Source: an uncultured Sulfuricurvum sp.
Lineage (GTDB): Bacteria; Campylobacterota; Campylobacteria; Campylobacterales; Sulfurimonadaceae
Assembly (NCBI GenBank): GCA_903844635.1
Contig: CAIMUF010000043.1
Coordinates: 1 to 41,888, forward strand
Direction of reading: 5' to 3'
Length of the DNA stretch: 41,888 nucleotides
Positions within the stretch are counted from its first letter, which is position 1. Each line of letters opens with the position of its first letter. Under the pieces are notes generated by a model. It was not told where the DNA came from. It saw nothing but the letters and a program-made list of their open reading frames with translations, and did not search any database. Of this stretch, positions 1,178-35,605 are shown in pieces. A program made the position numbers and the translations under genes.

Positions 1178-1213
1178 GCAATCAAACTAATTCCAATATT
1201 TTTAGGAATCACA

Positions 1214-8198: not shown

Positions 8199-8531
8199 AT
8201 GTTTAAAATTATGAATATATTTACGCAGCAACTTTATACGATACAATCAAAAGATATTACTAGCGTTGTCATCGTTTTAGCCGATGAAAATCATCCGATT
8301 TTTAGAGCCCATTTCGAGGGGAATCCGCTTCTTCCTGCTTTTTTGCATGTTGATATTGCAGCGGAGATCTTTGGCTTTGAGGTTGTCGGGATTACTAGGT
8401 CAAAGTTTATGGAGCCGTTACTGCCCAATGATGAGGTGGTGGTCTCGATAGAGCAACGCCCTGTCGGTGTCAGGATTCGATTTGTACGGGATACGCGCAT
8501 TGCCAGTGAGATCAATCTTGAAATCCTATAG
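8199..8531 (+). CDS. FabZ-like 3-hydroxyacyl-ACP dehydratase (APE dehydratase)
   Basis: A 110-residue single hotdog domain. The catalytic pair is visible as His38 in AHFEGNPLLP and Asp52 in FLHVDIAAE, with the 14-residue spacing of the FabZ His/Glu pair; Asp replaces Glu as in FabA. It should dehydrate 3-hydroxyacyl-ACP intermediates to trans-2-enoyl-ACP during polyene extension, like ApeI. A second hotdog dehydratase is at 25648-26010. A start at ATG 8211 is also possible. The 3' end overlaps the next gene. It is short compared with FabZ (about 150 residues). Confidence 0.83.
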   Translation: MFKIMNIFTQQLYTIQSKDITSVVIVLADENHPIFRAHFEGNPLLPAFLHVDIAAEIFGFEVVGITRSKFMEPLLPNDEVVVSIEQRPVGVRIRFVRDTRIASEINLEIL

Positions 8532-9228
8532 CCTTTGTCTTCTTATTCCCGTTTACAATAATCCTCAAACCATTGCGCGTGTTGTGAGAGAGGTTTTAGC
8601 CTTTAATCTTCCTATTATTGTGGTGGATGACGGTTCGGATGTTTTTGTTGAAACATTGATAGAGAGGGATGCAAATGTAACGGTTGTGCATCATAATCAA
8701 AATCAAGGGAAAGGGGTTGCGCTTCGTACCGGTGCCTTGAAAGCCAAAGAGATGGGTTTTAGCCATTGTTTGACGATGGATGGGGATGGGCAACATTTTG
8801 CGCAGGATATTCCCAAGTTTTTGGAGCTTTTTGAAGATGCGTGCCGTGAAAATACGATGATTATTGGTGTACGTGATTTTGAGACGTGCAACCCTCCGAA
8901 ATCTTCAGTTATCGGACGACAGATCGGGAATTTTTGGGTGTGGGTTGAGAGCGGAGGATGGGTGAGTGATACCCAGACGGGCTTTCGCCTTTATCCGGTA
9001 GAATTTTTGAGCTATCCTTCTTCGACGGTACGCTATGAGTTTGAAATCGAAAATTTGGTAAAATTCTTATGGTCAGGCGGAAAAGTGATGGAAGTGACAG
9101 TAAAAACACTTTATGATGAGACCCGAGTGACCCATTTCGATAAACTGAAAGACAATCTCCATATGATATTTTTGCACGTAAAACTCGTTATTTTACGACT
9201 ATTTTTACTTAAAGGAATACTAAAATGA
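8518..9228 (+). CDS. Family 2 glycosyltransferase
   Basis: A GT-A fold protein of about 236 residues. It begins LCLLIPVYNN, followed by the nucleotide-binding DDG (37-39) and a metal-binding DGDG with Asp88/Asp90. The acceptor-side motif DTQTGFRLYP and YEFEIE follow, as in dolichyl-phosphate-mannose-synthase-like enzymes. The C-terminus is hydrophobic (LVILRLFLLKGIL). GT2 genes are common in aryl polyene clusters and may attach a sugar-like anchor. TTG 8518 is chosen because the conserved fold begins right after it; GTG 8467 would add 17 unlikely residues. It overlaps the dehydratase by 14 bp and ends in ATGA, overlapping a tiny ORF at 9225. Confidence 0.87.
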   Translation: MKSYSLCLLIPVYNNPQTIARVVREVLAFNLPIIVVDDGSDVFVETLIERDANVTVVHHNQNQGKGVALRTGALKAKEMGFSHCLTMDGDGQHFAQDIPKFLELFEDACRENTMIIGVRDFETCNPPKSSVIGRQIGNFWVWVESGGWVSDTQTGFRLYPVEFLSYPSSTVRYEFEIENLVKFLWSGGKVMEVTVKTLYDETRVTHFDKLKDNLHMIFLHVKLVILRLFLLKGILK

Positions 9229-9260
9229 ACACAAACACAATGGAGACACGACTCGCATGA
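9225..9260 (+). CDS. 11-codon bridging ORF
   Basis: ATG at 9225 overlaps the glycosyltransferase TGA (ATGA). The frame encodes MNTNTMETRLA and stops at 9258-9260, where its TGA overlaps the ATG of the ammonia-lyase gene (ATGA again). AAAGGA lies about eight bases before the start. Translation of this mini-ORF would carry terminating ribosomes exactly to the lyase start, so it looks like a coupling device rather than a functional peptide. That role is an inference from the double overlap. Confidence 0.45.
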   Translation: MNTNTMETRLA

Positions 9261-10777
9261 CAGTAACAATCAATGACCAATTTATCCCTTTTGAAAATGT
9301 AGCAAACGCTTCGTCGGTGTTGCTTGATAGCAGTGTTCTTTTTAGAGATAGAATTCGTGCGGCGGAAGCATTGCTGATGAAAGAAATTAGCGACGGCAAT
9401 CCGATTTATGGTGTAACCACAGGGTATGGCGATTCGGGGAAAAACTATTTAGTTTTGGAAGATGCCAAAACATTGCAAGTGAATTTGTACCGTTTTCATG
9501 GATGCGGCGTGGGAGAGATTCTTTCTGAAAAAGAGATTTTCAACATTGTTTTGGTTCGTTTGATTAGTATTTCCAAAGGCTTTTCAGGGGTGAGCGTAGA
9601 ACTTTTGGAAGCCATGTTGAAATTTCTCGAATTGGGCATTTTACCGGCTATTCCTTCCAAAGGTTCTGTTGGGGCATCGGGGGATTTGACACTGCTTTCG
9701 TATATCGCGGCAGCTCTTGCCGGAGAGCGAGAAGTGATTTATCGCTCCCAGCTTAGATCGACTGCTGAGGTATTGCAAGAATGCGGGATTGAGCCGTATG
9801 TATTCAAGCCTAAAGAAGCGCTGGCAATTATGAACGGTACGTCGGTCATGGCCGGAATTTTAGTGGTTCAAATTGAAAATTTCGAGCGACTTCTTTTGGG
9901 ATTAGAGAGTTTTTCTGCGGGATTATTTGAAGCGATGGAAGCGGATACTACTGCATTGGAACCGTTCGTTCATCAGGTGAAACCGTTCGAGGGGCAAATC
10001 AAATGTGCTTCGAATTTGAGAGAAAAGCTGACCGGTGCGACACTGGTACATACCCGCTTGACCCGTTATCAGAGCTTTTTTGATGCGGAGCATCATAATA
10101 TCCAAGACCGGTATTCCATCCGTTGTATTCCTCAGATTTTGGGTGTTGCGTGGGACAATCTTGCGTTGGCAAAAAAATGGGTTGAGACAGAGATTAACTC
10201 GGTAAGCGATAACCCGTTGATTAACTGCGATGAGCAAATCATCTATACCGGATGTAATTTTTACGGCGGATACATGGCGCATTCAGCGGACACATTGAAA
10301 ATTTGTTTGGCAAATATGGCGGATTTGTTGGACAAACAGTTTGCAGTTTTGGTGGACGATAAGTTTAACCGTGGATTGGGTGAAAATCTTAAACTCTCTA
10401 AAGAACATTATCACCATGGGTTTAAAGCGATGCAAATCACTTTGAGTTCACTCAGTGCCGATGTTATGATGCGAATGTTGCCATCAAGTGCATTTTCACG
10501 CTCTACAGAGTCAATGAATCAGGACAAGGTAAGTATGGGAACCACGGGCGCGTTGGGACTTAAAGGGGGGATTGATGAATTTGCATCAATGCTTGCCATT
10601 GCTATGTTGGGAATAGCGCAAGCGATGGATATTCGAGGCGTTGAGAAGTTTTCTCAGTTCGCACAAAGCTTGTATGCCAAAATCCGAGCTATATCAGCTC
10701 CTTTGATTGAAGATCGACGATTGGATGGGGACATTGTGACCCTTAAAGCCATGTTGCTTCGCGGAGAATTGGTGTGA
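9257..10777 (+). CDS. Aromatic amino acid ammonia-lyase (HAL/TAL/PAL family)
   Basis: A 506-residue MIO-dependent lyase that removes ammonia from an aromatic amino acid. The catalytic Tyr51 lies in YGVTTGYG and the MIO-forming Ala140-Ser141-Gly142 in GSVGASGDL; the SDNPL segment follows. In the substrate-selectivity loop LQVNLYRFHGCGVG the two key residues read Phe80-His81, unlike the usual His-Leu (tyrosine), Phe-Leu (phenylalanine) or Ser-His (histidine). In flexirubin-type clusters this enzyme makes the cinnamate/coumarate starter, which is the likely role here; histidine degradation is unlikely because no hut genes are nearby. Its stop overlaps the reductase start (GTGA, 10774-10777). Confidence 0.9.
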   Translation: MTVTINDQFIPFENVANASSVLLDSSVLFRDRIRAAEALLMKEISDGNPIYGVTTGYGDSGKNYLVLEDAKTLQVNLYRFHGCGVGEILSEKEIFNIVLVRLISISKGFSGVSVELLEAMLKFLELGILPAIPSKGSVGASGDLTLLSYIAAALAGEREVIYRSQLRSTAEVLQECGIEPYVFKPKEALAIMNGTSVMAGILVVQIENFERLLLGLESFSAGLFEAMEADTTALEPFVHQVKPFEGQIKCASNLREKLTGATLVHTRLTRYQSFFDAEHHNIQDRYSIRCIPQILGVAWDNLALAKKWVETEINSVSDNPLINCDEQIIYTGCNFYGGYMAHSADTLKICLANMADLLDKQFAVLVDDKFNRGLGENLKLSKEHYHHGFKAMQITLSSLSADVMMRMLPSSAFSRSTESMNQDKVSMGTTGALGLKGGIDEFASMLAIAMLGIAQAMDIRGVEKFSQFAQSLYAKIRAISAPLIEDRRLDGDIVTLKAMLLRGELV

Positions 10778-11466
10778 AGAAAGTTCTCATCACCGGTGGC
10801 ACAGGTGCAATCGGTGAAGCCACTGTGCGGATGTTTTCAGCCAATGGTTATTTTGTCTACATCCATTATCACAGCAATAAAGAAAAAGCCGATGCGTTGG
10901 TTGCGGAGTTGGGAAATGCGCAAAGTGTCGGGTTTGATATTGCTTCAGGGGAGAGTGTTCGTGCTGCTTTGGAGGGAATATCGGTCGATGTATTGGTTAA
11001 TAATGCCGGTAAAACGAAAGATAAACTTTTCTTTTGGATGGAAGATTCGGATTGGGATGATGTGATTCAAACCAATCTTACGGGAACGTATTATGTGACC
11101 AAAGCACTGCTTCCTGCAATGCAAAAGCAAAAATCGGGGGCTATTGTTAACGTCGCTTCCGTTGCCGGTGTGGTTGGGAATATCGGTCAAGCTAACTATG
11201 CTGCTTCAAAAGGTGGGATGATTGCGATGACCAAATCTCTTGCCCTTGAAGTGGCTCGCTATAAAATCCGTGCAAACTGTGTTGTTCCCGGATTTATCCA
11301 CTCAGAGATGACAGCCGGATTCAATGAAAAAGATTTTGAAAAGATGATTCCCATGAAGAGATTCGGAAACCCAGAGGAAGTAGCAGAAGTGATTTTCTTT
11401 CTTGCGGACAAGGCATCATATATGACGGCAGAAGTGGTCAATATTTCGGGCGGGATGGTACGATAA
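10774..11466 (+). CDS. FabG-like 3-ketoacyl-ACP reductase
   Basis: A 230-residue short-chain dehydrogenase that reduces 3-ketoacyl-ACP with NAD(P)H. The cofactor loop is GGTGAIG (8-14), then NNAG, and the catalytic Ser129, Tyr142 and Lys146 (YAASK). The C-terminus ends in the FabG-like YMTAEVVNISGGM. The start is GTG at 10774, overlapping the lyase stop. The stop overlaps the next ketosynthase start by one base. It is the only ketoreductase in the cluster, so it probably serves the polyene cycle, as ApeQ does. Confidence 0.9.
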   Translation: MKKVLITGGTGAIGEATVRMFSANGYFVYIHYHSNKEKADALVAELGNAQSVGFDIASGESVRAALEGISVDVLVNNAGKTKDKLFFWMEDSDWDDVIQTNLTGTYYVTKALLPAMQKQKSGAIVNVASVAGVVGNIGQANYAASKGGMIAMTKSLALEVARYKIRANCVVPGFIHSEMTAGFNEKDFEKMIPMKRFGNPEEVAEVIFFLADKASYMTAEVVNISGGMVR

Positions 11467-12686
11467 TGAGAAGAGTTGTGATTACTGGGACAGGTTTTTA
11501 TTCTCCAATCGGCGACAATATGGCAGATTTGCGCTCTTCATTGGAGCAAATGAAAAGCGGTATCCGTTTTATGAATGAATGGAGCGGTGTTAACGGGCTT
11601 GATGCTCGGATTGCAGGTGTTGTTCCTGTAAGTGATTTTAGTGAAATTCCACGAGCTTATCGTCGTACTATGGATCGTGTAGCGATGATGTGTGCCCTTT
11701 CTCTCAAACGAGCGGTTGCCCAAAGTGGATTGGACGTATCACAGATTAGTGCGCATAAAACAGGTATCTCGTTTGGGTCAGCGATGGGTGGCTTGGAAAC
11801 ATTGTTTGAATACGCTGAAGATGTTTCGCATAATAGTGGATTCGGACGTCAAAATGCGACGGCTTTTTTACGTTTTATGAGCCACACGGTCGCGGCAAAT
11901 TTAGCAGTGATGTTCGGTGTTATCGGACGTAATATTCCAACGAGTTCGGCATGTACCGCTTCTTCCCAGGCTATTGGTGCCGGATATGAATCGATTAAAT
12001 ACGGGATGAGTGATGTAATGCTTGTGGGTGGCGGTGAAGGATTGCACTACGTCGAAGCAGGAATTTTTGACAGTATGGGGGCAACCGCTATCGGGTTCAA
12101 CGATAACGCCCAATCGGCATCACGCCCGTTTGATATTTCACGCTCAGGACTTATTGTTTCAGAGGGCTCTGGGGCATTGGTACTCGAAGAGTATGAGTAT
12201 GCCAAGGCGCGTGGAGCAGTGATTTTGGGAGAAATCGTAGGATATGCTACGGGATGTGACGGTAGTCATATCACATTGCCCTCAGAACGCGGTATGGAGC
12301 AGGTGATGCGTGATGCGCTCGCCGATGCCAAGCTCAATCCTGAAGATATCGGTTACATCAATGCGCACGCAACCGCTACACCTAAAGGAGATATTTTCGA
12401 ATCGATTGCAGTCCATCATGTTTTCGGGCATAATACTCCTATTAGCAGTATCAAAGGCTATACGGGTCATATGTTTGGCGGTGGCGGAGCGTTTGAGAGT
12501 ATCGTCTCACTGATGGCCCTTAATGAATCGTTTTTACCTGCCAATAAAAATTTAGAGACCATTGATCCGGCGTGTGCCCCATTGGATTACATCCGTTCTC
12601 ATCGAGAAACAAAGGTCAAGGCCGTTATGAATAATAATTTTGCATTCGGGGGAATCAATACCTCGATCATCATCAAAAAAATTTAA
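11466..12686 (+). CDS. Beta-ketoacyl-ACP synthase (FabF/KAS II-like), APE chain extension
   Basis: A 406-residue thiolase-fold condensing enzyme. The triad is complete: Cys163 in SSACTASSQ, His301 in NAHATATPKGD and His335 in GYTGHMFGGGGAFES. C-terminal NNNFAFGGINTS is typical of FabF. It would extend the ACP-bound aryl polyene with malonyl-ACP. It is the most FabF-like of the three elongating ketosynthases here and is followed 12 bp later by an acyl carrier protein gene. Confidence 0.92.
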   Translation: MRRVVITGTGFYSPIGDNMADLRSSLEQMKSGIRFMNEWSGVNGLDARIAGVVPVSDFSEIPRAYRRTMDRVAMMCALSLKRAVAQSGLDVSQISAHKTGISFGSAMGGLETLFEYAEDVSHNSGFGRQNATAFLRFMSHTVAANLAVMFGVIGRNIPTSSACTASSQAIGAGYESIKYGMSDVMLVGGGEGLHYVEAGIFDSMGATAIGFNDNAQSASRPFDISRSGLIVSEGSGALVLEEYEYAKARGAVILGEIVGYATGCDGSHITLPSERGMEQVMRDALADAKLNPEDIGYINAHATATPKGDIFESIAVHHVFGHNTPISSIKGYTGHMFGGGGAFESIVSLMALNESFLPANKNLETIDPACAPLDYIRSHRETKVKAVMNNNFAFGGINTSIIIKKI

Positions 12687-12698
12687 AAGGGAGACTGT

Positions 12699-12944
12699 AT
12701 GAGCAGTGAAGTATTTGAAAAAGTTCAAGAAATTATTGTAGAGCAGTTTGAAAAAGAGCCTTCCGAGATTTCAATGGATAAATCACTTGTAGAGGATTTA
12801 GGGCTGGACAGCTTGGATATGTTTGATCTTATCTGTGCCTTAGAAAAAGAATACGGGTTTCATTTTGAACGCGAAATGGGCTCATCGATAGAAACGGTGG
12901 GTGACATAGTAGGGCAATTGGAACGAAACATTAATAAAGCATGA
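12699..12944 (+). CDS. Acyl carrier protein 1
   Basis: An 81-residue ACP. The phosphopantetheine attachment Ser38 lies in DLGLDSLDMFDLI, the canonical DSL motif at the start of helix II. AAGGGAG precedes the ATG. It sits between an elongating ketosynthase and a membrane acyltransferase, so it probably carries the growing polyene. Its last codons overlap the next gene (ATGA, 12941-12944). Confidence 0.93.
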   Translation: MSSEVFEKVQEIIVEQFEKEPSEISMDKSLVEDLGLDSLDMFDLICALEKEYGFHFEREMGSSIETVGDIVGQLERNINKA

Positions 12945-14185
12945 TTTTTACTCTGGGGTACATCCCCTTCGTGTTGATCGTATATCATTATTTTGGGGTA
13001 TCGATTGCCGGACTTTTACTGGCAGGAGCGGGCACTGTATTGGTCGCGTTATCGTGGATTACCCATCAACCGCTTAAAAATTTTGTCTCCCCTGTTATTG
13101 CGGCTGTACTTGGAATCGGGGCTTATTTTTCAGGAAGTTTTACCGCTCTTAAGCTTTACCCTTTGATTCTTTCTCTCCTTTTTTTGACCTATTTTATAGC
13201 TTCTGTTGTCACAAAACGGTATCCGCTTATAGCGTGGGTAGAAAAGTTTAAAAAACGCTCTCTTAGCGAGCAAGAATATCATGACATGATTGTTTCTCAT
13301 TGGTTTTGGATCGGTGTATTGGCGTTTAACAGTCTTATTCATCTTTATTTAGTGATGAACAGTGATACCGTATTTTGGGCTTTGTACTCTTTTGCGGGTT
13401 GGTATCTCTATTTTGGTCTTGCGATGGTGCTTCAGCTTAGTTTTGCGCATCGAGAACAAATTTTTCAATGGAGCAGGACAATTTGGGGATACGGACTTTT
13501 TGGTGGTGTGATTGTGATGGGATTTATCCCTGCAATCGTGGGATATACCTATAATCGGCTAATGAAAAAACCAAAACCCCATATTTTCTTTCAGCGAGTG
13601 ACTGCTGCAATGTTTCGATTATTTTTCCGTGCAGCACCGGGTGTCGGAAGGATAGAAATCATTGGCAGTTCAAATTGTAATCCTAATGTTACCACGTTGT
13701 ATGTCGCCAGTCACGAGTCGTGGCTCGATTACCCTCTGATGGGAGCGTACATTACCGATTTGTACCATTTGACCAATAAAAAAGATGCATTTTCATGGAG
13801 TATCCGAGGGATTGCAAAACTTTTGGGGGTGATTGATGGAGCGGGTAGCAATGCGCTTCATGCACTGTTGCAAAAACTGCGAGAGGGAAGTAATGTATTG
13901 ATCTTTCCTGAGGGTTCACGTGAGACGCAAGCGGTATTGCTGCCGTTTAAAAAAGGAGCATTCTCGCTTTCGATTGAATCGGGAGTGGCGATTGTTCCCG
14001 TTATCATTTCGGGGACACGGTTTTTAGTTCCCAAAGGGGCGACTCATTGGCAAGATATAAAAAATAGTACGATTACCATACAATTTTTAGAGCCGATAAC
14101 TCCCGCTCAGGGAGAGCGTGCTGAGGCATTAAAGAACAGAGTCTGGGATGTTATGAATGTGGCGCAAAAAAATCATAATGGTTAA
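12941..14185 (+). CDS. Membrane protein fused to a PlsC-like acyltransferase
   Basis: This is a 414-residue two-part protein. Residues 1-200 carry about seven hydrophobic segments resembling the small membrane proteins of APE clusters (COG4648-like). Residues 230-414 are a lysophospholipid acyltransferase-type domain with HX4D at His258-Asp263 (SHESWLDYP) and the substrate motif FPEGSR at 322-327. In related clusters these parts can be separate genes, so this may be a fusion. It probably moves the polyene acyl chain from ACP to a lipid or other anchor at the inner membrane. The 3' end overlaps the opposite-strand acyltransferase gene by 35 bp. Confidence 0.83.
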   Translation: MIFTLGYIPFVLIVYHYFGVSIAGLLLAGAGTVLVALSWITHQPLKNFVSPVIAAVLGIGAYFSGSFTALKLYPLILSLLFLTYFIASVVTKRYPLIAWVEKFKKRSLSEQEYHDMIVSHWFWIGVLAFNSLIHLYLVMNSDTVFWALYSFAGWYLYFGLAMVLQLSFAHREQIFQWSRTIWGYGLFGGVIVMGFIPAIVGYTYNRLMKKPKPHIFFQRVTAAMFRLFFRAAPGVGRIEIIGSSNCNPNVTTLYVASHESWLDYPLMGAYITDLYHLTNKKDAFSWSIRGIAKLLGVIDGAGSNALHALLQKLREGSNVLIFPEGSRETQAVLLPFKKGAFSLSIESGVAIVPVIISGTRFLVPKGATHWQDIKNSTITIQFLEPITPAQGERAEALKNRVWDVMNVAQKNHNG

Positions 14186-15020
14186 ACCACTGATCGGGAT
14201 GTGCTCTCACAACTTTTTCTAAAATATCAGCATACTCTTGGGCAGCAAATGCAATCGCTTCTTCTTTGGGGAGTGTACGATCATAGGGTGTTAGCCAGTA
14301 ATAATAGGCGTTGTAGTGATAGTCAGATTTTCGTAACGACAAAAGGGCAATAAGAGGAACTTTACGATTGTAGGCAACTTCAAATGGATTTTTATTCATA
14401 AGGATGTTTCTGCCCAAAAAAGTGACGCGTACGCTGCTGGATTGTGTCAAAAATCGATCTGCCATCATGGCAACAATCTCTCCGTTTTGAAACGCTTTTG
14501 CCACACGAATGGCAACGGCAATAGGTTCCTCTGAAAGATCAATGACTCTCATCGTATTAGCAGATTCACCTTCGATAAATTTTCCAAAACCTTGAATACT
14601 CTTTTTGATTACTTCTTGCATAACAATATTGATGGGGACATTTCGCTCCGATGGGAGAAGTCCGCAGGTACTCCAATCTCCCACATGGGAAAAAAGAAAC
14701 AATACTCCTTTGTTGGCATTCGTAAGATACGGTTTTTCATTTTGAGCATTTATGTGATAACGATTTGTAAATTGTTTACTTAAAAAGCGATCGGCAAAGA
14801 CAAGAGCAAACATAAAGAGATGCCGATAATAAATAAGGTAATTGAATTTACCGGTACACAAAAGATAATATTCACGTAAATATCGTTTAAGGGATGGGGT
14901 TGTGATAGAAAAATAGAAGACGACAAAAAAGAGGATAAAGCGTAATCCCTTATAACCAAAAAGGCGAAAAAAAAGATAGACGATAAAAAGACCAGTGCCA
15001 TTACCTCGCTGTTTAATCAT
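14151..15020 (-). CDS. LpxL/HtrB-like acyltransferase (COG4261 type)
   Basis: A 289-residue protein related to lipid A late acyltransferases. An N-terminal hydrophobic anchor lies at about 10-40. FLFSHVGDWSTCG around His112 is the catalytic-motif region, and VAMMADRFL...VTFLG and DQWFNHYDFF complete the family pattern. Such proteins are regular members of APE and flexirubin clusters. It is one of three minus-strand genes in or beside the cluster and overlaps the preceding plus-strand gene tail to tail by 35 bp. It starts 84 bp from the divergent ACP gene, so this gap must hold two promoters. Confidence 0.85.
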   Translation of the reverse strand: MIKQRGNGTGLFIVYLFFRLFGYKGLRFILFFVVFYFSITTPSLKRYLREYYLLCTGKFNYLIYYRHLFMFALVFADRFLSKQFTNRYHINAQNEKPYLTNANKGVLFLFSHVGDWSTCGLLPSERNVPINIVMQEVIKKSIQGFGKFIEGESANTMRVIDLSEEPIAVAIRVAKAFQNGEIVAMMADRFLTQSSSVRVTFLGRNILMNKNPFEVAYNRKVPLIALLSLRKSDYHYNAYYYWLTPYDRTLPKEEAIAFAAQEYADILEKVVRAHPDQWFNHYDFFAPHS

Positions 15021-15104
15021 CTTTAACCTTTAGTTTTTCGAGATTATAGCTTTTGGCGAGCTAAAATTGGATAAAATAAGACTAATAAACATTAGGAAGT
15101 AATT

Positions 15105-19480: not shown

Positions 19481-19522
19481 TTTGATTATAATAAATAGAA
19501 TTAAATCTCATAAAGGTATGAC

Positions 19523-22317: not shown

Positions 22318-24451
22318 ACGTCTCCGTTTTCTTATTCTTGCCCTTGTTTTTATAGCGATTGGAATCACCCTTTTTATCAAATATCCGCTACAAGGCGATA
22401 TTTCTAAAGCACTTCCCGAAGATAAAGCAACGGGCATTTTATCGCTTTATAATCAGTTTGATTCGTCCAAAAAACTGCTGGTATTGGTGGAGGGATTTAC
22501 CCCGGAGAGTCTGGAAAAAGCCAATACGATAAAAGAGAAATTGTCCCAACTAAGCCAAGTGGAGAGTGTCTATTTCGGAACGTCCGATATTGACCCAAAA
22601 GTGCGGGAGTATTTGGCGAAGAACTGGTACTATTTATCGGACTTTAATGCAACCGTTTTGAGCAGGGAAGAGGTCAAAAACAGACTGGTTGCACTCTCGG
22701 CTAAAATGCTAGAGGGGGGTGCGTATACGCAAGTTGATACGACCGACCCTTTGGGATTGTTCGAAGATCCGTCGTTTATGCAAGGAGCGCAAAAAGATGG
22801 GATGATGATTGTCCCAAATAGAGGATATTGCGTCATAGCCTCTATCCGTCCCTCAGTGGGAGATATGGAGGGCTCGCGCAAACTGTATGATGAGGTGAAC
22901 ACGGCATTGGCTCCTTACAAAGAGGGAATTGTCGTTTTTAGCCCTAACTTTTACAGCGTTGAAAACTCTGCGTACATTCAAAGTGATGTGGAAAAGATTA
23001 CCGCACTTACCATCGTGATGCTTATTGGTGTCTATTTTTTCTTACTTCGTAATAAAGTGATGCTGATTTTTAGCCTGAGCACTCTTTTTCTTTCAGGACT
23101 TATGGCAATTTTAGCGGTAAAGCTGATTTTTGCGGATGTATCGATGTTGGTGGTGGCTTTTGGTGCGGGGATCGCCACGATTGCTGAAGATTATCTTTTT
23201 ATGCTTTTTTTGAATGATGATTACAAAAACCGTCGTTTTAATTGGGCTGTTTTTTGGGGATTTGTAGCGACAGAAGTGGGCTTAGGCTCTTTGACTTTTA
23301 TTGATTTTCCTCTTATTTCGCAGCTGGCACTTTTCGCCTTTATCTCGTTGGCTCTTTCGTATCTCATCTTTGCCTTTGTCTTTCCCCGATTGGCATTTTA
23401 TCATGAGGACGTACCCCAAAAAAGTGATCTGTTGTTTGAGAAATTATGCAATCTTCGCCGTATTCCTCCGAGTGTTTTTACCATTCTTTCGCTTCTTTTG
23501 GTGGCATTGTCGATGTCACATCTGACGTTTGACTCTAATTTTCGCCATTTGGATTATCAAAACGGACCCCTTTTGGAAGCCGAAAAACTGTTTGCCGAGA
23601 CGTTGGGAGAAGACCGAATTCCTATCCTTATTGAAGCTAAAAACAGTGAAGAGTTGCTAAGTCGTGCGGAAATCCTAAAAAAACACGCCCCCAGCAGTTA
23701 TTCTCTTGCGAATATGGCGCTAAGCGGTGTGAAAAGTGCTCAGCGATTGGCTCAAATCCGAAGCTATGATTTTGCCTCGCTTCGTCAAAATTTGGAAGAG
23801 ACAAGTGCGGAGGCGGGTTTTAGAAGCGGGATATTTAAAAACGCATACTTACCGCTCCAAGAGCTTTCCCCTTACACCCTCGATACTGATGCTTTGCGTG
23901 TTTTAGGTTCTGAAATACTTAAAACCAATAACGGTGTCATGAGTTTGGCGTACATCAAAACGGATGAGTTCAAAGCACTTACTCCGTATCCATTTTTCAT
24001 AGCGATTGACGCAAAAGAGATTCTGTCTCACAGTGCCACCAATGCCCTCAAAGAATTTACCACGATATTTACGATTGGATTTTCTCTTTTGCTGATGATC
24101 ATTATTGCAGTCACCCGTCGCCGTGCCCTTTATGCCCTTAACTTTCTTTTCTTTCCAATGTCAGTGATTTTAGTAATGTTTGCACTCAGCGGAAGCTTTA
24201 ATCTGATGCACCTTTTTGCCCTCTTTTTGATGATGGTGTACGGGATAGATTATGGGATTTACCTCTCACGCGGAGAGATTTCGAACTCTATGCGGGCAGT
24301 GATTTATTCATGTCTAACAACTTTTGCAGGATTTGGGGTACTGATTTTGAGCGATGTTCCTGCGGTCCATTCGATAGGTGAAGTGACGATTGTGGGGATT
24401 ATCGCAATTATGATGCTATTTTTTCAAAAAGGTGAGCAATGCCGGGTGTGA
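22292..24451 (+). CDS. MMPL/RND-family exporter of the APE cluster
   Basis: A 719-residue membrane protein with two repeats of one TM segment, a large periplasmic domain and five further TM segments (first block about 230-370, second about 590-715). GAGIATIAEDYLFMLF and MMVYGIDYGIYL are the conserved proton-path segments; the Asp/Glu there couple to the proton gradient. It probably extracts the pigment-lipid from the inner membrane for the LolA-like partner. ATG 22292 is taken; TTG at 22298 or 22304 is possible. The next gene overlaps it by 13 bp. Confidence 0.9.
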   Translation: MLLKLKHFERLRFLILALVFIAIGITLFIKYPLQGDISKALPEDKATGILSLYNQFDSSKKLLVLVEGFTPESLEKANTIKEKLSQLSQVESVYFGTSDIDPKVREYLAKNWYYLSDFNATVLSREEVKNRLVALSAKMLEGGAYTQVDTTDPLGLFEDPSFMQGAQKDGMMIVPNRGYCVIASIRPSVGDMEGSRKLYDEVNTALAPYKEGIVVFSPNFYSVENSAYIQSDVEKITALTIVMLIGVYFFLLRNKVMLIFSLSTLFLSGLMAILAVKLIFADVSMLVVAFGAGIATIAEDYLFMLFLNDDYKNRRFNWAVFWGFVATEVGLGSLTFIDFPLISQLALFAFISLALSYLIFAFVFPRLAFYHEDVPQKSDLLFEKLCNLRRIPPSVFTILSLLLVALSMSHLTFDSNFRHLDYQNGPLLEAEKLFAETLGEDRIPILIEAKNSEELLSRAEILKKHAPSSYSLANMALSGVKSAQRLAQIRSYDFASLRQNLEETSAEAGFRSGIFKNAYLPLQELSPYTLDTDALRVLGSEILKTNNGVMSLAYIKTDEFKALTPYPFFIAIDAKEILSHSATNALKEFTTIFTIGFSLLLMIIIAVTRRRALYALNFLFFPMSVILVMFALSGSFNLMHLFALFLMMVYGIDYGIYLSRGEISNSMRAVIYSCLTTFAGFGVLILSDVPAVHSIGEVTIVGIIAIMMLFFQKGEQCRV

Positions 24452-25647
24452 CAGTCCTCCAAAATGATGGCACACGAATGTGCGAGCCATTGAGTTTTGA
24501 TTCTTATGGAGAAAAAAACGACAATAGTGCTTTTGTCATCCCTTCAAATAGTAATAAAATGACGCAAATTCGAGATATTATGGATGCATTGCGCGGCGGA
24601 AATATTCCGTTGTTGTTTGATGGCACGATGATATCAAGTAGCCAAAAAGTGCAAACGTTAGTGAACGACAATGCTAAAAGTTTTAATGAATCTGCCGCCG
24701 CACTGTTTTTTACCTCAGGCACGAGCGGAAATCCTATCGGCGTGGTGAAAACACAAGAACATCTCCAGTGCGAAACATTGACTCATACCAAATGGCTAAA
24801 AGATGAAAATTTTGAGCAGTGCCTTGTGACTGTCCCCTTTTTTCACATTTATGGATTTTTATTTGGCCTTTCAGTCCCTGCGGCCCTTGGTTTAGACATT
24901 GTGACAAAGGAAGATTTCCTTCCCCATGAAATCGTCAATCTTTGCAGGAATAAATCTACTTTGTGTATTACCAATCCCGTTTTTGTCCGTGCGATGCTGA
25001 GACTCAGGGAGGATATCGATCTCTCCAAGACTCTTTTTATCAGCTCAAGCGGTCCACTGGAACCTCACGAAGCATCGGCATTCGAGGAAAAATATTCCAC
25101 ACGGCTGACGCAGCTTTATGGTTCTAGTGAAACAGGCGGAATTGCGATACGCTCTGGAGGAAGCTGTGTATGGACACCATTGGACGGCGTAGGAATCTCA
25201 GAAGACGATGGTGTTTTATGTGTGGAATCTCCGTTTGTTTCAAGTACTGTGTATGATGAAACTTTCATTGCTATTCCATCTCCTTTTCGAACCACGGATA
25301 TTATAGAAATGGCCGACAATGGATTTAAAATCACAGGGCGGGCCAGTGAATTGGTAAAAATCGGAGGAAAACGACTTTCCATCGTAGAAATTGAGACATT
25401 TTTAGAAAAAATGGAGGGGATTGATGAGGCGTTAGGGTTTGTTGAATATCATCCCGAACAGCTTCGCGGAGAGAGTTTAACGCTTTATCTGGTAGGAGAT
25501 GAGACGAAAATTCATAAAACTATTCTCAAAAAAGCGCTTCATGATTATTTTGGCGGGATTCACATCGAGAGTAAAATCATAATGATGGAAAAAATCGAAA
25601 AGACCGCCATGGGGAAAAAGATTCGCTCACGACTGGTGACGTTATAG
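24439..25647 (+). CDS. Acyl/aryl-ACP ligase (ApeH-like AMP-forming)
   Basis: A 402-residue ANL-family enzyme that adenylates a carboxylic acid and loads it on an ACP. The P-loop FTSGTSGNPIG begins near Thr92, then PFFHIYG, YGSSETGG (A5), FRTTDI (A7), KIGGKRLS (A8) and the C-terminal Lys393 in MGKKIR (A10). It is shorter than stand-alone acyl-CoA synthetases. It likely activates the cinnamate-type acid made by the lyase at 9257 as polyene starter. Its TAG abuts the TAA of the opposite-strand dehydratase with no intervening base. Confidence 0.9.
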   Translation: MPGVTVLQNDGTRMCEPLSFDSYGEKNDNSAFVIPSNSNKMTQIRDIMDALRGGNIPLLFDGTMISSSQKVQTLVNDNAKSFNESAAALFFTSGTSGNPIGVVKTQEHLQCETLTHTKWLKDENFEQCLVTVPFFHIYGFLFGLSVPAALGLDIVTKEDFLPHEIVNLCRNKSTLCITNPVFVRAMLRLREDIDLSKTLFISSSGPLEPHEASAFEEKYSTRLTQLYGSSETGGIAIRSGGSCVWTPLDGVGISEDDGVLCVESPFVSSTVYDETFIAIPSPFRTTDIIEMADNGFKITGRASELVKIGGKRLSIVEIETFLEKMEGIDEALGFVEYHPEQLRGESLTLYLVGDETKIHKTILKKALHDYFGGIHIESKIIMMEKIEKTAMGKKIRSRLVTL

Positions 25648-26010
25648 TTAGAGTGACGTATAAAACACTGCAATTTCACCTGTTGCAACAGGGTTTTGTG
25701 AAGCGTTAGAGATGGCATTAAATTCAAAAAGATAGGAATCGTTAAACGAATGTTTGAGGGTGACGGTAGTGTCAAAATGAAGAGTATCAGTCTTGTTGCA
25801 GAGTTTAATATTTCGAAAAGATGAGACCACTCCGGCATTACAGTTGGGAGAAAGGGGAAAAAAACTTGTACCCTGAGCGGCGGCTTCGCAAAACATGGCA
25901 AGCGTTGGGACGAGAGGAAAGCGGGTTTCGAAGGTCACTTGCGTTTCATTTTGTTCTGAAAGCTGCCCAATAAAAATAAGGGGTTCTTTGTGAGGTAAGC
26001 GACTGTTCAT
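25648..26010 (-). CDS. Hotdog-fold dehydratase (ApeP-like)
   Basis: A 120-residue minus-strand hotdog protein. MNSRLPHKEPLIFIGQL at the start (His7) and FCEAAAQG with Glu42 match the predicted 3-hydroxyacyl-ACP dehydratases of APE clusters, where ApeI and ApeP work as a pair. The partner here would be the protein encoded at 8199. Its location about 17 kb from that partner and on the other strand is notable. The 63-bp gap to DarA is divergent and must hold both promoters. Confidence 0.82.
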   Translation of the reverse strand: MNSRLPHKEPLIFIGQLSEQNETQVTFETRFPLVPTLAMFCEAAAQGTSFFPLSPNCNAGVVSSFRNIKLCNKTDTLHFDTTVTLKHSFNDSYLFEFNAISNASQNPVATGEIAVFYTSL

Positions 26011-26073
26011 AAAATGAGTCCTGACTTTTTAGAGAAATGGTAGAATAAACTTACTTAAATACGAGGTATTACA

Positions 26074-26994
26074 ATGTCCAAACGGATTCTGGTCGTCTAT
26101 TATTCACAAAGCGGACAATTGGAAAATGTTCTCACCGCCATGCTGCATCCATTGATACTTGCTGATACGGTCGAGGTGACGATGTTACCATTACGCCCAA
26201 CGGAAGATTTTGTCTTTCCATGGTCTTTTTGGAAGTTTTTTGATGCGTTTCCTGAATCGGTTTATTGTGATGCGTTGCCTAATGTCCCATTCGAGCTTAT
26301 TGACTCTGAAAGCTTTGATCTGATTATTATCGGATATCAACCGTGGTTTCTTTCACCCTCGTTGCCCATTAGTGCCTTTATGAAATCCGATCAAGCGAAA
26401 GTCATTTTAAAAAATAAACCCGTTGTCACCGTCATAGCCTGCCGTAATATGTGGATAGAAGCCCAAAAAACCATGAAAGAGCTTTTGTTATCGTGTGAAG
26501 CACGTCTTATTGATAATGTTGTGCTAAGTGATCAAAGCGGTCCATTGGAGAGTTTTATTACGACCCCTCGTTGGATGCTTACCGGAAAACGTGAATCGTT
26601 TTGGGGATTGTCGGCGGCGGGTATTTCGGATGATGTTATCCAAAAAAGCAGCCGTTTTGGAGAAGCGATTTTGTCAGGACTTATCAGCAATAAAGAAGTT
26701 GAGAATACCCCGATGCTCACTGGTTTGGGTGCGGTGTGTGTTGATCCACGTTTTATTGCCTCTGAAAAGATAGGGAAACGGAGTTTTCGGATTTGGGGTA
26801 AGCTTATTCGGCTGTTTGGAAAAAGAGGTTCATGGAGCAGACGTCCAGTATTGGGTATCTATGTTCTTTTTCTAATAACATTGATTGTGAGTGTTGTTCC
26901 CCTAAATATGGCATTACAAAGCATTATTAGACGTTTATTTAAAGGAAAAATAGATAAAATAATACAAAGTATAGAAGCTCCTTCAGGCAAATAG
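26074..26994 (+). CDS. darA: Dialkylresorcinol condensing enzyme, DarA-like
   Basis: A 306-residue protein with a flavodoxin-like N-terminal domain (RILVVYYSQSGQLENVL, then LIIIGYQPWFLSPSLPI) and a hydrophobic C-terminal segment (about 266-287, LGIYVLFLITLIVSVVPL). This length and layout match DarA, which acts with DarB to cyclise and aromatise two acyl chains into a dialkylresorcinol. GAGG lies upstream of the ATG. A DarB-type KAS III gene follows 12 bp after its stop, the order seen in known dar loci. The gene name rests on recognition of the pair; a generic flavodoxin is less likely. Confidence 0.85.
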   Translation: MSKRILVVYYSQSGQLENVLTAMLHPLILADTVEVTMLPLRPTEDFVFPWSFWKFFDAFPESVYCDALPNVPFELIDSESFDLIIIGYQPWFLSPSLPISAFMKSDQAKVILKNKPVVTVIACRNMWIEAQKTMKELLLSCEARLIDNVVLSDQSGPLESFITTPRWMLTGKRESFWGLSAAGISDDVIQKSSRFGEAILSGLISNKEVENTPMLTGLGAVCVDPRFIASEKIGKRSFRIWGKLIRLFGKRGSWSRRPVLGIYVLFLITLIVSVVPLNMALQSIIRRLFKGKIDKIIQSIEAPSGK

Positions 26995-27006
26995 GTTTAA
27001 GACACT

Positions 27007-28149
27007 ATGAACAATGTATATATTACAAAAATGACCGCATTTTTACCCAATGACCCGGTATCTAATGATCAAATAGAAGAGGTTCTAGGGGCTGTAGGCG
27101 GTGTAAAATCCCGCGCTAAAAATGTCGTTTTGCGTAGTAATGGTATTAAGACTCGTCATTATATTCTTGACCCAAAAACACGACAGCCACTTTTTACCAA
27201 TGCCTCTATGACAGCTCAGGCAATTCGCGCGCTGGAAGATGAGACGTTTAGCTTAGACGAGATTGGATGTTTGGCGTGCGGTACGACGTCTCCTGACCAT
27301 CTTATGCCCAACCATGCGCTTATGACACAAGGAGAGCTAGGATTACATGCCTGTGAGGCGATTGCTACGTCGGGTATTTGCCTTAGCGGAATCACAGCGA
27401 TGAAATATGCCTATATGACAGTGGCCTGCGGTGAGTATACCAGCGCTGTATCGACAGGTTCTGAAATTTCATCGATGGGGATGAGAGCGGAAATGTTTAC
27501 ATGTGATGCTCAGGATAGTGAGAGTATTGAAAAGCGTCCTGAAATTGCATTTGGAAAAGATTTTTTGCGCTGGATGCTTTCCGATGGCGCAGGCTGTGCA
27601 CTGTTACAAGCCGCTCCAAATCCCCAAGGACTTTCACTGAAAATAAAATGGATCGATATCCTCTCGTATGCTGGGGAGATGCCGACATGTATGGTCAGTG
27701 GAGCACTTCAAGATAATGAGGGTAACTATCAGCCGTGGAGAGAGCTTGATCCCACTCTTTGGCGTGAGAAAACAGTCTTTGCCGTAGAGCAAGACGTCAA
27801 ACTTCTGAATGAAAATATTGTCCATTACACGGTGGAAAAACCGCTTCAAAGTATTATAAAAAAACGAAATTTGAGAGCAGATGAGATCGATTATTTCTTG
27901 CCCCATTATTCCTCAGAGTATTTTCGGGACAAGATGGCATTAGGATTGGAAAAGGTTGGTTCTGCCATACCGAGTGAAAAGTGGTTTACGAATCTGACCC
28001 AAAAAGGGAATACGGGAAGTGCGTCCATTTATATTATTCTCGAAGAATTGTTTAATTCCGGCAAGCTTCAAATCGGTGAAAAAATTCTCTGTTTTATTCC
28101 GGAAAGCGGACGTTTTTCGACCGCATTTATGTTGCTTGAGGTGGTATAA
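27007..28149 (+). CDS. darB: DarB-type beta-ketoacyl synthase III
   Basis: A 380-residue KAS III-fold enzyme with a complete Cys-His-Asn triad: Cys125 in SGICLSGITA, His300 in FLPHYSSEYF and Asn335 in KGNTGSASIYI. It differs from housekeeping FabH (about 320 residues) in length and surroundings. In DAR synthesis DarB condenses a beta-ketoacyl-ACP with an enone-type partner, and DarA finishes the ring. It is next to darA and followed directly by a small gene and a BtrH-like acyltransferase. Confidence 0.88.
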   Translation: MNNVYITKMTAFLPNDPVSNDQIEEVLGAVGGVKSRAKNVVLRSNGIKTRHYILDPKTRQPLFTNASMTAQAIRALEDETFSLDEIGCLACGTTSPDHLMPNHALMTQGELGLHACEAIATSGICLSGITAMKYAYMTVACGEYTSAVSTGSEISSMGMRAEMFTCDAQDSESIEKRPEIAFGKDFLRWMLSDGAGCALLQAAPNPQGLSLKIKWIDILSYAGEMPTCMVSGALQDNEGNYQPWRELDPTLWREKTVFAVEQDVKLLNENIVHYTVEKPLQSIIKKRNLRADEIDYFLPHYSSEYFRDKMALGLEKVGSAIPSEKWFTNLTQKGNTGSASIYIILEELFNSGKLQIGEKILCFIPESGRFSTAFMLLEVV

Positions 28150-28554
28150 ATGAAAAGAGACGAAGCACCGCAGGATAATATCGCCATGTATCATGGGGGA
28201 CGAAAGGCCCTTTATGCAGTAGCGGATGAAGGAAAATTTGAGATTACGCAAAGCAGTGGGTGGAGTGTTGAAGAGATGGCAACATTGCAAGCAGTAGATG
28301 AGTTTGAGCGTTTGGAGCGTGAAGCATATCGTGAGTTTAGCGAAGGGAAAAATTCACCATTAGGTGTTTGGATGTATCGTCGTCGTATGAGTATTGCCAC
28401 GTTATCCCAATGTTCAGATTTTTGGCAATGGAGTATCAATCGTCATCTAAAACCCGATGTTTTTAAGAGACTAAGCCCCAAAAAAATTGCTCTTTATTGT
28501 GATGTTTTCGATATAACAGCCGCAGAACTATTCAATCCAAAGGAGCCAAAATGA
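28150..28554 (+). CDS. Unknown 134-residue protein in the DAR module
   Basis: I do not recognise a named family. The C-terminal half (about 77-130, PLGVWMYRRRMSIATLSQ to YCDVFDITAAELFNP) resembles the helical pattern of XRE-type HTH proteins, with the final helix and 'AAELFNP' similar to their ends. The N-terminal half is charged and has no motif. It sits without a gap between darB and the BtrH-like gene and overlaps the latter (ATGA, 28551-28554), so it is made together with them. It could be a small regulator or an assembly partner of the condensing enzymes. Confidence 0.75.
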   Translation: MKRDEAPQDNIAMYHGGRKALYAVADEGKFEITQSSGWSVEEMATLQAVDEFERLEREAYREFSEGKNSPLGVWMYRRRMSIATLSQCSDFWQWSINRHLKPDVFKRLSPKKIALYCDVFDITAAELFNPKEPK

Positions 28555-29543
28555 GTAAGGCGTTTGTTCATAGTCATGCGGCACATTGCGAAAGCGGTGT
28601 CGTTTCATCGCTCCTTACACACGCAGGGTATCCTATCAGTGAGGCGATGGCGTTTGGCATCGGAAATGGGTTGACATTTGCCTATTTACCGATTGTAAAA
28701 ATCGATGGAATGCCTCTTGTCGCGTATCGAATGCCGCCCAAAAGTATCCTCAAAACGGTCGAAAAAAGACTGGGCCTTGAGGTTAAAATCAAAAAATATT
28801 CCAATCCTCAAAGCGCCCGTGAGGATTTGATAAAAATGGTGGATGCGGGTAAATTCGTGGGGCTGCAAACGTCCGTCTTTTATCTCCCTTATTTTCCTCC
28901 GGAGATGCGGTTTCATTTTAATGCTCATAATTTAGTGGTATATGGGAAAAATGATACGGGATTTTTAATCAGTGACCCGGTGTTCGAGCATCCTGTGGAA
29001 GCAGAGTTTAATGCACTGGATAAAGCCCGTTTTGCCCGTGGAGTATTTGCTCCCAAGGGTGCGTGTTATACGATAGAAAAAATTCCTGAAAGAATTGATT
29101 TGGCAAAAGCGATTAAAAAAGCCATCAACCGTACTTGTAATATGATGCTTTATACTCCTTTCCCGTGGGTGGGATTACGTGGTATCGGGATGATGAAACG
29201 TGCTATTCTCAAACTTCCAACTCATCCTCATAAACGGTATGCTTCTTTGTATTTAGGGCATATTATCCGAATGCAAGAAGAGATAGGGACGGGCGGGGGC
29301 GGATTTCGTTTGATGTATGCAGCCTTTTTGTCTGAGTGTGCAGAGGTACTTGGGCGTGAGGAACTAAAAACTGCATCGTCTATGATGGGTGAGGTTGGGG
29401 ATAAATGGAGAGTATTCGCACTCTCGTGCTCTAAAGCGTGTAAAGGAAATGAATACTCCGTTGAAGAAATTGCCCAAAAACTTCAGGAATGCAGAGACAG
29501 TGAAGAGCGTGTATATCGTTTTTTAAAAGGGTTGAAATTATGA
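28551..29543 (+). CDS. BtrH-like acyl-ACP acyltransferase
   Basis: A 330-residue protein of the BtrH N-terminal/DUF4872 type. BtrH moves an acyl group from an ACP to a hydroxyl or amine acceptor in butirosin synthesis. The papain-like start is visible: Cys13 in HAAHCESGVVSSLL, His126 in FNAHNLVVYG and Asp142 in ISDPVF are the likely catalytic residues. In this cluster the obvious reaction is transfer of the finished aryl polyene from ACP to a resorcinol hydroxyl, giving the flexirubin-type ester. That role is an inference. It overlaps the next ketosynthase gene (ATGA, 29540-29543). Confidence 0.82.
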   Translation: MSKAFVHSHAAHCESGVVSSLLTHAGYPISEAMAFGIGNGLTFAYLPIVKIDGMPLVAYRMPPKSILKTVEKRLGLEVKIKKYSNPQSAREDLIKMVDAGKFVGLQTSVFYLPYFPPEMRFHFNAHNLVVYGKNDTGFLISDPVFEHPVEAEFNALDKARFARGVFAPKGACYTIEKIPERIDLAKAIKKAINRTCNMMLYTPFPWVGLRGIGMMKRAILKLPTHPHKRYASLYLGHIIRMQEEIGTGGGGFRLMYAAFLSECAEVLGREELKTASSMMGEVGDKWRVFALSCSKACKGNEYSVEEIAQKLQECRDSEERVYRFLKGLKL

Positions 29544-30658
29544 AGCTTGCGAATAAAGTTTACCTAAATGCCTTTAGTTGCGTATGTGCAGCAGGCCTGA
29601 ATATCGAAGAAATTTTTGAGACACTGCTTCGTGGAAACTCTGCAATTACGAACCAAAGCGGTTATGTCGACGGTGCGGTTATGCCTTTAGGTAAGATACC
29701 AAGTGAAGATGATTTTTTCGAGTTGTTAGAGGAAAATGTAGCATCGCTCCTTACTAAAACTCCATGGTTAGTTCCCAGTGAGACGATTGTCTTGGTTGGT
29801 TCTTCGGTGGGAGGGATGTGTGTAGCCGAGAAGATGTTTTTTACTGAGAGTAACTTCAAAAATATCACTGTTGAAGAACTCTCCATTCGTGCTATTGCGG
29901 ATAAAGTTGTAGAAAAATTTGGCTTTAAATCGGCATTATCCTTTTCAACGGCCTGCACGAGCAGTTCTATTGCTATTGATTTTGCTTACGATTTGATAAC
30001 TCAAAGGCTTTATAAAACGGTAGTGGTCATCGGTGCGGATGAGCTAAGCCGTTCTGCCGTCAATGGTTTTGACAGACTAGGGATTGCTTCACATTCTCCC
30101 ACGCGCCCTTTTGATGTGCAACGTAATGGTATCAACGTAGCGGAGGGGATAGCGGTATTGGCTCTTTCTTCTTCGAAGACATTGCAGTGCGTTGAAATTA
30201 TGGGGTGCGGGGTAAGTTCCGATGCCTATAATATCACTCATCCGCATCCCCAAGGCGAGGGGGCGATGGCTGCCATGAACCAAGCATTGCAAGCCGCTGG
30301 GATAGATGCTTCTAGTATCGATTATATCAATGCGCATGGGACGGGGACGATTGCTAACGATGAGATTGAGAGTGCTTCCATTGAAAAACTTTTTGGCAGA
30401 CATCCTTTTGTTGTTTCAACTAAAGCCGTTACGGGGCATACTTTAGGGGCTTGCGGTGCATTGGAAGCGGCGATTAGTGCGATGAGTATTATCCATAACA
30501 TCATACCTGCGTGTACCAATCTCACAACACCGGTCAATGGTTCACTTTCACATCCGTTAGAGTCAATACAGACAGAAGTTAATTATGTACTTTCGAATGC
30601 TTTTGGTTTTGGCGGCGGTAATGTGTCACTTGTATTAGGAAAAGTTTATGCAGATTAA
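29540..30658 (+). CDS. Beta-ketoacyl-ACP synthase, APE/DAR cluster
   Basis: A 372-residue condensing enzyme with Cys139 in STACTSSSIAID, His266 in NAHGTGTIAND and His300 in TGHTLGACGALEA, all intact. It is the third elongating ketosynthase of the cluster. Its 3' end overlaps by 11 bp with a Cys-less ketosynthase-like gene, so the pair repeats the KS plus chain-length-factor layout at 17526-19480. One pair may extend the polyene and the other make the beta-ketoacyl chain for DarB. Confidence 0.9.
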   Translation: MKLANKVYLNAFSCVCAAGLNIEEIFETLLRGNSAITNQSGYVDGAVMPLGKIPSEDDFFELLEENVASLLTKTPWLVPSETIVLVGSSVGGMCVAEKMFFTESNFKNITVEELSIRAIADKVVEKFGFKSALSFSTACTSSSIAIDFAYDLITQRLYKTVVVIGADELSRSAVNGFDRLGIASHSPTRPFDVQRNGINVAEGIAVLALSSSKTLQCVEIMGCGVSSDAYNITHPHPQGEGAMAAMNQALQAAGIDASSIDYINAHGTGTIANDEIESASIEKLFGRHPFVVSTKAVTGHTLGACGALEAAISAMSIIHNIIPACTNLTTPVNGSLSHPLESIQTEVNYVLSNAFGFGGGNVSLVLGKVYAD

Positions 30659-31298
30659 TTTAGAAATACTTGGCTTCGCTACGGTTGAAGATCCTCAAAA
30701 ATGTACGACGTTAAATGAAAAAACTGTAGTAAGCGATATGATGTTGCGCAGACGATTGACCCGTAATGCCCGTATGGCTCTTTATTTAACCGATCAAATT
30801 GGTGATTTTACTTCTCCTATTGTCATTGGTAATGCATATGGAGAAGTATCTGAAACATTTGATATTCTCCGTTGTATCGCTGCCAATGAAACTGTAAGTC
30901 CTACCGCATTTCAAAATTCCGTGCACAATACCCCAGCATCTTATCTCTCTATTGTTGGGCAAAACAAGGGATATATTACGACCGTAAGTGATTTACACGA
31001 AACCTCTGCTTCGGTCTTAAAAGTGGGTGCGGTCAAATCTCTCACCTTCGAAACATTGCTCCTTATTGTCAGTGACTCCATTGATTTTGAGCGAGTTGAA
31101 GAACTCAATCGTTGCGGTATAACACTAAAAGAGTGCGCAGTAGCATTACAAGTACGTCATAGTCAAAAAGAGGCGACAATGACATTGAGCGGTAAAGCAT
31201 ATGACGGATATTCGCCGAGCATTTGGGCTATGCTGGAAATTATTGAAAAAATGGTTGAAAGCAATGGTTCTGAGGTTATTGTCGCTATCGAGATTTAA
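30648..31298 (+). CDS. Short Cys-less ketosynthase-like protein
   Basis: A 216-residue protein of the short 'beta-ketoacyl synthase N-terminal' type. Recognisable parts are FTSPIVIGNAYGEVSETFDIL, SPTAFQNSVHNTPASYLSI and TTVSDLHETSASVLKVGAV. In the last segment the nucleophile position holds no Cys. TAFQNSVHNTPAS is typical of these chain-length-factor-like proteins in APE clusters. It probably pairs with the KS encoded just before it. It ends the plus-strand cluster, with its stop overlapping the opposite-strand hydrolase gene by four bases. Confidence 0.82.
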   Translation: MQINLEILGFATVEDPQKCTTLNEKTVVSDMMLRRRLTRNARMALYLTDQIGDFTSPIVIGNAYGEVSETFDILRCIAANETVSPTAFQNSVHNTPASYLSIVGQNKGYITTVSDLHETSASVLKVGAVKSLTFETLLLIVSDSIDFERVEELNRCGITLKECAVALQVRHSQKEATMTLSGKAYDGYSPSIWAMLEIIEKMVESNGSEVIVAIEI

Positions 31299-35595: not shown

Positions 35596-35605
35596 ACAGT
35601 AACGA

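Follow-up and report, generated by a model that had tools for sequence, protein, structure and literature searches.

A probable flexirubin-type pigment cluster in one block of a Sulfuricurvum genome

What might a contiguous set of aryl polyene (APE) and dialkylresorcinol (DAR) genes make in a sulfur-oxidizing member of the Campylobacterota? We addressed this question for contig CAIMUF010000043.1 of assembly GCA_903844635.1, from an uncultured Sulfuricurvum sp., over a stretch of 41,888 nucleotides (the window). Reading of its open reading frames (ORFs) gave 26 intact frames at 8199-31298, forming one 23 kb block of APE and DAR biosynthesis, tailoring and export genes. Nearly all lie on the forward strand, adjacent frames abutting or sharing a few bases; the reverse strand holds just 14151-15020 and 25648-26010. 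From this gene content, we consider it probable that the block makes a flexirubin-type pigment of the outer membrane, in which a 4-hydroxyphenyl-polyene carboxylic acid is esterified to a 2,5-dialkylresorcinol. An earlier sequence-only reading had placed the parts of an APE-DAR cluster in this block, and each part that it named was found as an intact ORF. Its gene list was incomplete, lacking the ATP-binding cassette (ABC) pair, the FAD enzyme, the methyltransferase, DarG, the family 2 glycosyltransferase and two acyltransferases. The full set, including acyl carrier proteins (ACPs) and ketosynthases (KSs), is as follows.

8199..8531, +, FabA-like hotdog dehydratase, ApeI-like (PF07977, E 1.5e-4, just under cut-off)
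8518..9228, +, family 2 glycosyltransferase, GT2 (PF00535, E 1.4e-18)
9257..10777, +, aromatic amino acid ammonia-lyase (PF00221, E 4.4e-139)
10774..11466, +, FabG-like ketoreductase, ApeQ-like (PF00106/PF13561; YxxxK)
11466..12686, +, KS1, Cys-His-His ketosynthase, ApeR-like (top PDB match 7f27_A, E 4e-100)
12699..12944, +, ACP1 (NF002148, above cut-off)
12941..14185, +, membrane N-terminal part fused to an AGPAT-type acyltransferase (PF01553; HxxxxD)
14151..15020, -, LpxL/HtrB-like acyltransferase (PF03279, E 4e-15)
15105..15356, +, ACP2 (PF00550; PRK09184-type)
15356..16069, +, ABC transporter ATPase, DarF-like (PF00005; follows darH in Bacteroidota loci L008-L010)
16066..17262, +, ABC-2 permease, DarI-like (PF12698)
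17259..17525, +, ACP3, DarC-like (PF00550)
17526..18674, +, KS2, Cys-His-His ketosynthase, DarJ-like (PF00109/PF02801)
18671..19480, +, Cys-less, chain-length-factor-like KS2 partner in the DarK position (predicted fold, pLDDT 91)
19523..20758, +, FAD-dependent halogenase-like enzyme with WxWxIP motif (PF04820; WIWCIP at 215)
20758..21837, +, FlxJ-family methyltransferase (NF053543, 479.6 bits, cut-off 560)
21838..22317, +, LolA-like periplasmic carrier (predicted fold matches LolA, TM 0.81)
22292..24451, +, RND/MMPL-type exporter (HpnN, partial, E 2e-5)
24439..25647, +, AMP-forming aryl-CoA/ACP ligase, FlxY/ApeH-like (PF00501; TSGTSG motif)
25648..26010, -, second hotdog protein, ApeP-like dehydratase (LPH...EAAAQ motif)
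26074..26994, +, DarA, dialkylresorcinol aromatase (full-length homology to DarA beside DarB)
27007..28149, +, DarB, condensing and cyclizing ketosynthase (NF005293, 575.6 bits, cut-off 450)
28150..28554, +, DarG-family protein (NF053536, 149.8 bits, cut-off 70)
28551..29543, +, DarH, BtrH-related acyltransferase (NF053550, 463 bits, cut-off 300; PF14399 and PF16169)
29540..30658, +, KS3, Cys-His-His ketosynthase, ApeO-like (top PDB match 6qsp_A)
30648..31298, +, Cys-less chain-length-factor partner of KS3, ApeC-like, 216 aa (PF13723)

Enzyme classes were assigned by Pfam and NCBIfam scans, and profile or homology matches were obtained for nearly every pathway step. A motif check of the ACPs, ketosynthases, ammonia-lyase, short-chain dehydrogenase, AMP-ligase and DarB found the active-site residues intact across the cluster enzymes. 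Pfam and motifs confirmed the ammonia-lyase, aryl ligase and ketoreductase of the sequence-only reading. The ammonia-lyase carries the 4-methylideneimidazol-5-one (MIO) motif Ala-Ser-Gly (ASG) at residues 140-142, invariant in 17 sequences, and is 52-58% identical to Campylobacterota ammonia-lyases from outside the genus; we predict it to be a tyrosine ammonia-lyase. The earlier count of three ACPs, three Cys-His-His ketosynthases and two Cys-less partners also held, by residues, PDB matches and predicted fold: the phosphopantetheine Ser (Asp-Ser site) is present in all three ACPs, and Cys-His-His in KS1, KS2 and KS3.

Judged by the nearest solved structures, KS3 and its partner would correspond to ApeO and ApeC, and KS1 to ApeR; 6qsp is the ApeO/ApeC entry and 7f27 the ApeR entry. 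The only PDB matches of the KS3 partner were 7f28_A and 6qsp_B. Among the fetched Campylobacterota neighborhoods, close relatives of KS1 (55-56%) occurred only in genomes G105 and G333, and seven further carriers, when tested, gave a general ketosynthase at 35-38% as their top match. Neither of the hotdog proteins, the two dehydratases proposed earlier, reaches a profile cut-off, yet both are kept in the cluster across the phylum. The first has a His and an Asp at catalytic spacing (HF...D, read from sequence) and adjoins the GT2 gene in relatives too; the second gave no match in the profile libraries or PDB and is conserved in the clusters of relatives at 23-36% identity.

Both DarA and DarB of the sequence-only reading were recovered, by different means. 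NF005293, which describes the StlD/DarB subfamily, identifies DarB, whose nucleophile is likely Cys125. DarA had no match in Pfam or NCBIfam; it is 36-40% identical over ~300 aa to the gene that immediately precedes darB in Flavihumibacter, Epilithonimonas and Chryseobacterium, and 42-54% identical to DarA of other Campylobacterota. In those Bacteroidota loci (L008-L010), DarG, DarH and the ABC pair follow darA-darB. The BtrH-like acyltransferase named earlier proved to be DarH, the candidate ester-forming enzyme. The ABC-ABC-ACP-KS-partner order at 15356-19480 is common to relatives, where it adjoins darABGH. Its last member, the 269-aa KS2 partner, had no sequence match in Pfam or PDB; its predicted structure adopts the ketosynthase/chain-length-factor fold, with the ishigamide chain-length factor as nearest match (E 3e-14).

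The FAD enzyme and methyltransferase genes sit between the APE and DAR halves. In PDB, the FAD enzyme matches 3nix_A with E 2e-92 and known halogenases with E 1e-40; halogenation by this enzyme is a guess, because the annotation of its closest solved relative, 3nix, says no more than flavoprotein. Among the export and anchoring genes, the LolA assignment of the sequence-only reading was borne out by predicted fold, and its MMPL assignment found weak profile support. The two parts of the 12941..14185 protein match separate genes in some relatives. The GT2 ORF opens at 8467, and comparison with G424 places its start near 8518.

The closest named relatives of DarB belong to Sulfuricurvum metagenome-assembled genomes (MAGs) and a Campylobacterales MAG, at 97, 92 and 90% identity. 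In Sulfuricurvum MAG JAUYRN010000013, with the 97% identical DarB, the neighboring metallo-β-lactamase (MBL) gene is 99.6-100% identical. By these matches the host of the cluster is a Sulfuricurvum, in agreement with the Campylobacterota host proposed earlier.

From genes identified with intact active sites and conserved as a set, we infer a seven-step route. The ammonia-lyase would convert tyrosine to 4-coumarate, which the ligase would load onto CoA or ACP; for flexirubin of Chitinophaga pinensis, formation of 4-coumaroyl-CoA by a starter pair of this kind has been demonstrated (PMC3992019). KS1 would then start the chain and KS3 with its partner extend it with malonyl units, the ketoreductase and hotdog dehydratases leaving one double bond per round. 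Modification of the aryl ring would fall to the methyltransferase and, probably, to the FAD enzyme, which would add methyl and perhaps Cl/Br, respectively. For the second half, KS2, its partner and ACP3 would supply an acyl chain, DarB would condense and cyclize two chains, and DarA would aromatize the ring. DarH would join polyene acid and resorcinol, and the ABC pair, MMPL-type exporter, LolA and acyl- and glycosyltransferases would bring the product to the outer membrane or anchor it there. By analogy with other APEs and flexirubin-like pigments, the ester would quench radicals in that membrane, which would suit a bacterium at oxygen-sulfide boundaries.

Several observations weigh against this assignment. 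The block holds no dedicated thioesterase or phosphopantetheinyl transferase. The methyltransferase scores under the cut-off of the FlxJ model, DarB reaches 475 bits on the narrower model NF053539 (cut-off 550), and MMPL matches to 22292..24451 are weak and were found in 2 of 16 relatives. The ammonia-lyase reaches 339 bits on the FlxA model, short of the cut-off of 700, and is 33-35% identical to the enzymes of three DarB-carrying Bacteroidota genomes, so that its specificity for tyrosine is a prediction.

We then considered how widely the gene set occurs, using 397 genomes spread evenly over the Campylobacterota and a DarB threshold of E < 1e-130. DarB was present in 22 genomes, this one included, from six families (f1, f3, f4, f7, f10 and f12), corresponding to a patchy presence in about one in twenty sampled species; in most, the whole gene set lies in a single neighborhood, and several of the positive genomes are assembled as one contig. 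Within Sulfuricurvum, 5 of 41 species carry DarB. This recurrence in phylum and genus led us to reject the idea that the cluster is unique to this genome. A plasmid search for DarB gave nothing closer than distant StlD/DarB genes, which stood in different contexts. Two Campylobacterota genomes match the ApeC-like partner (G056:C1:2473510-2474112 and G079:C1:1091312-1091572) without a full DarB, which makes it probable that the phylum also has APE-only clusters. G122 has very long open frames of 1557-3241 aa with ketosynthase matches (G122:C1:2180270-2196747) at a distance of about 110 kb from its pigment cluster; they probably encode a modular or polyunsaturated fatty acid-type synthase.

In an alternative that we regard as unlikely, the block would yield two unjoined products: an outer-membrane APE lipid, as in E. 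coli and Xenorhabdus, anchored by the glycosyl- and acyltransferases, and a free DAR, exported by the ABC pair, that would scavenge radicals or act as a signal. The GT2, LpxL-like and AGPAT-like genes do fit the APE lipid pathway (PMC8253772), but the same glycosyltransferase, acyltransferase, LolA and exporter genes occur in flexirubin and arcuflavin clusters that make an ester or hybrid. Also in favor of this alternative, the ABC pair accompanies the DAR half; against it, DarH lies near DarB in nearly all loci. Separation of the halves is tolerated in G276, where they lie ~0.6 Mb apart on one contig or chromosome, both retained; however, no DarB in the phylum sample was found without an ammonia-lyase, which all 21 other DarB-positive genomes carry (16 in the fetched neighborhood, five elsewhere in the assembly). 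The DarB-positive Sulfuricurvum genome G410 showed no ammonia-lyase; this genome is 81% complete, and its contig stops within the cluster.

An arcuflavin-like pigment (xanthomonadin-DAR) with a hydroxybenzoate starter would, as in Azoarcus, combine APE and DAR with halogenase-like and methyltransferase genes. Its starter comes from the XanB2-type chorismatase ArcB (PMC3949708), and no XanB2 or chorismatase gene is among the 26 ORFs; in its place stands the intact-MIO ammonia-lyase, conserved in all sampled relatives. We thus rejected this very improbable reading and, because the ammonia-lyase starter replaces the XanB2-type enzyme, filed the cluster as flexirubin-type; of the earlier "flexirubin/arcuflavin-type" label, the first half is retained and the second dropped. 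The patchy occurrence in the genus and foreign inserts in two relatives might be cited for decay or silence of the cluster in this metagenome-assembled genome. That reading has hardly any likelihood given intact, coupled ORFs with active-site residues present and copies kept by four relatives at 81-97% DarB identity.

In a DarB tree built without betaproteobacterial sequences, one branch (94/89) splits all Campylobacterota from the Bacteroidota, Streptomyces and Pseudoalteromonas that were sampled. Although G333 belongs to the family of Sulfuricurvum, it joins f12 (96/94) instead of that genus, and members of f10 and f4 fall in two places. Because branching within this clade cuts across families, transfer between Campylobacterota families is likely and gives the simplest account; repeated loss is the alternative. 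Outside the genus, the FAD enzyme was found in six genomes and the methyltransferase in seven, with both in G394, within neighborhood flanks of ~18 kb beyond which copies could be missed; within Sulfuricurvum, G414 has a cluster copy without the FAD enzyme. We tentatively propose that Campylobacterota have their own flexirubin lineage, spread between families by transfer and with species-variable ring tailoring (methyl, halogen, both or neither), whose product here is perhaps a halogenated and methylated DAR ester, also lipid-anchored and not yet isolated.

The right border of the cluster is clear, because an MBL-DUF2126 gene pair stands to its right in five of five Sulfuricurvum copies (directly in four, 3.1 kb apart in G418) and is retained in the cluster-free genomes G423 and G308. 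To the left, the flanking sequence is variable, and a clean empty site could not be defined. Composition gave no sign of a recent foreign island, the GC content of the block (0.39-0.44) being similar to that of the right flank (0.36-0.46). The ligase/second-hotdog junction, at the APE-DAR boundary, is an insertion spot in two Sulfuricurvum relatives: G418 (L117/L118) has an insert of ~8 kb resembling a type I restriction-modification set, and G424 (L115) an AT-rich insert of 2.6 kb with a REP-transposase-like ORF (both identities by eye).

Elsewhere in the window, an AT-rich segment at 568-3983 (GC ~0.24), directly downstream of the tmRNA gene (136-507), encodes an antitoxin/ParE-type pair, a response-regulator-like protein and proteins of 239 and 556 aa that had no Pfam or PADLOC match; it has the look of a small mobile island inserted at ssrA. 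At 4567-5522, a helix-turn-helix protein precedes a Fic/DOC protein matching PADLOC candidate PDC-S04 (E 2e-24), a copy of which, 95% identical, lies ~9 kb from the MBL gene of G308. To the right, the genes at 32221-39104 for a DUF2126 transglutaminase/amidoligase, a circularly permuted ATP-grasp/Alpha-E protein and a second transglutaminase form an operon that Sulfuricurvum genomes without the cluster also keep.

Flexirubins are known mainly from Bacteroidota and are still used as their chemotaxonomic mark. This use is weakened by the presence of a complete cluster in sulfur-oxidizing Campylobacterota (~5% of sampled species), whose carriers indicate further possible pigment hosts. Moreover, the gene orders distinguish the companions of the APE half from those of the DAR half, an aid in testing which enzyme joins the two. 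The sequence-only reading knew of no described product of this kind in the phylum; the literature searched on Sulfuricurvum, Arcobacter, Campylobacterota and Epsilonproteobacteria yielded no characterized cluster and no description of a flexirubin or aryl polyene, with the limit that Table S7 of PMC3949708, listing 39 polyene-cluster genomes, may include phylum members.

The kind of system is already known; what is new is its presence in this phylum, its arrangement as one block and the halogenase/methyltransferase pair, which varies. The DarB condensing enzyme and DarA are shared with the darB/StlD operons of Pseudomonas and Photorhabdus. Those operons make free DAR, whereas the Sulfuricurvum DAR genes sit with a full APE pathway and DarH. 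With the ape clusters of E. coli CFT073, Xenorhabdus and Acinetobacter (PMC8253772; PDB 6qsp, 7f27, 7f28), which lack DAR genes, the block shares the ApeO/ApeC pair, ApeR, the ketoreductase, two hotdog dehydratases, ACPs, a LolA-like carrier and an RND exporter. In the arcuflavin set (arc and dar) of Azoarcus sp. BH72, APE and DAR genes yield an APE-DAR hybrid, a halogenase and a methyltransferase are annotated, and an ABC-ABC-ACP-KS-partner segment accompanies DarB-DarA; 15356-19480 corresponds in kind to darF, darI, darC, darJ and darK (PMC3949708); its three loci, however, are unlinked and lack an ammonia-lyase. The flx and dar genes of Flavobacterium johnsoniae and C. pinensis share the ammonia-lyase and aryl ligase start, the type II ketosynthase/ketoreductase/dehydratase set, the FlxJ-family methyltransferase, the LolA, exporter, acyltransferase and glycosyltransferase genes, darA-darB-darG-darH and the ABC pair (PMC3992019). 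From these flexirubin clusters Sulfuricurvum differs in phylum, in module order and in holding one 23 kb block, compared with two loci in C. pinensis.

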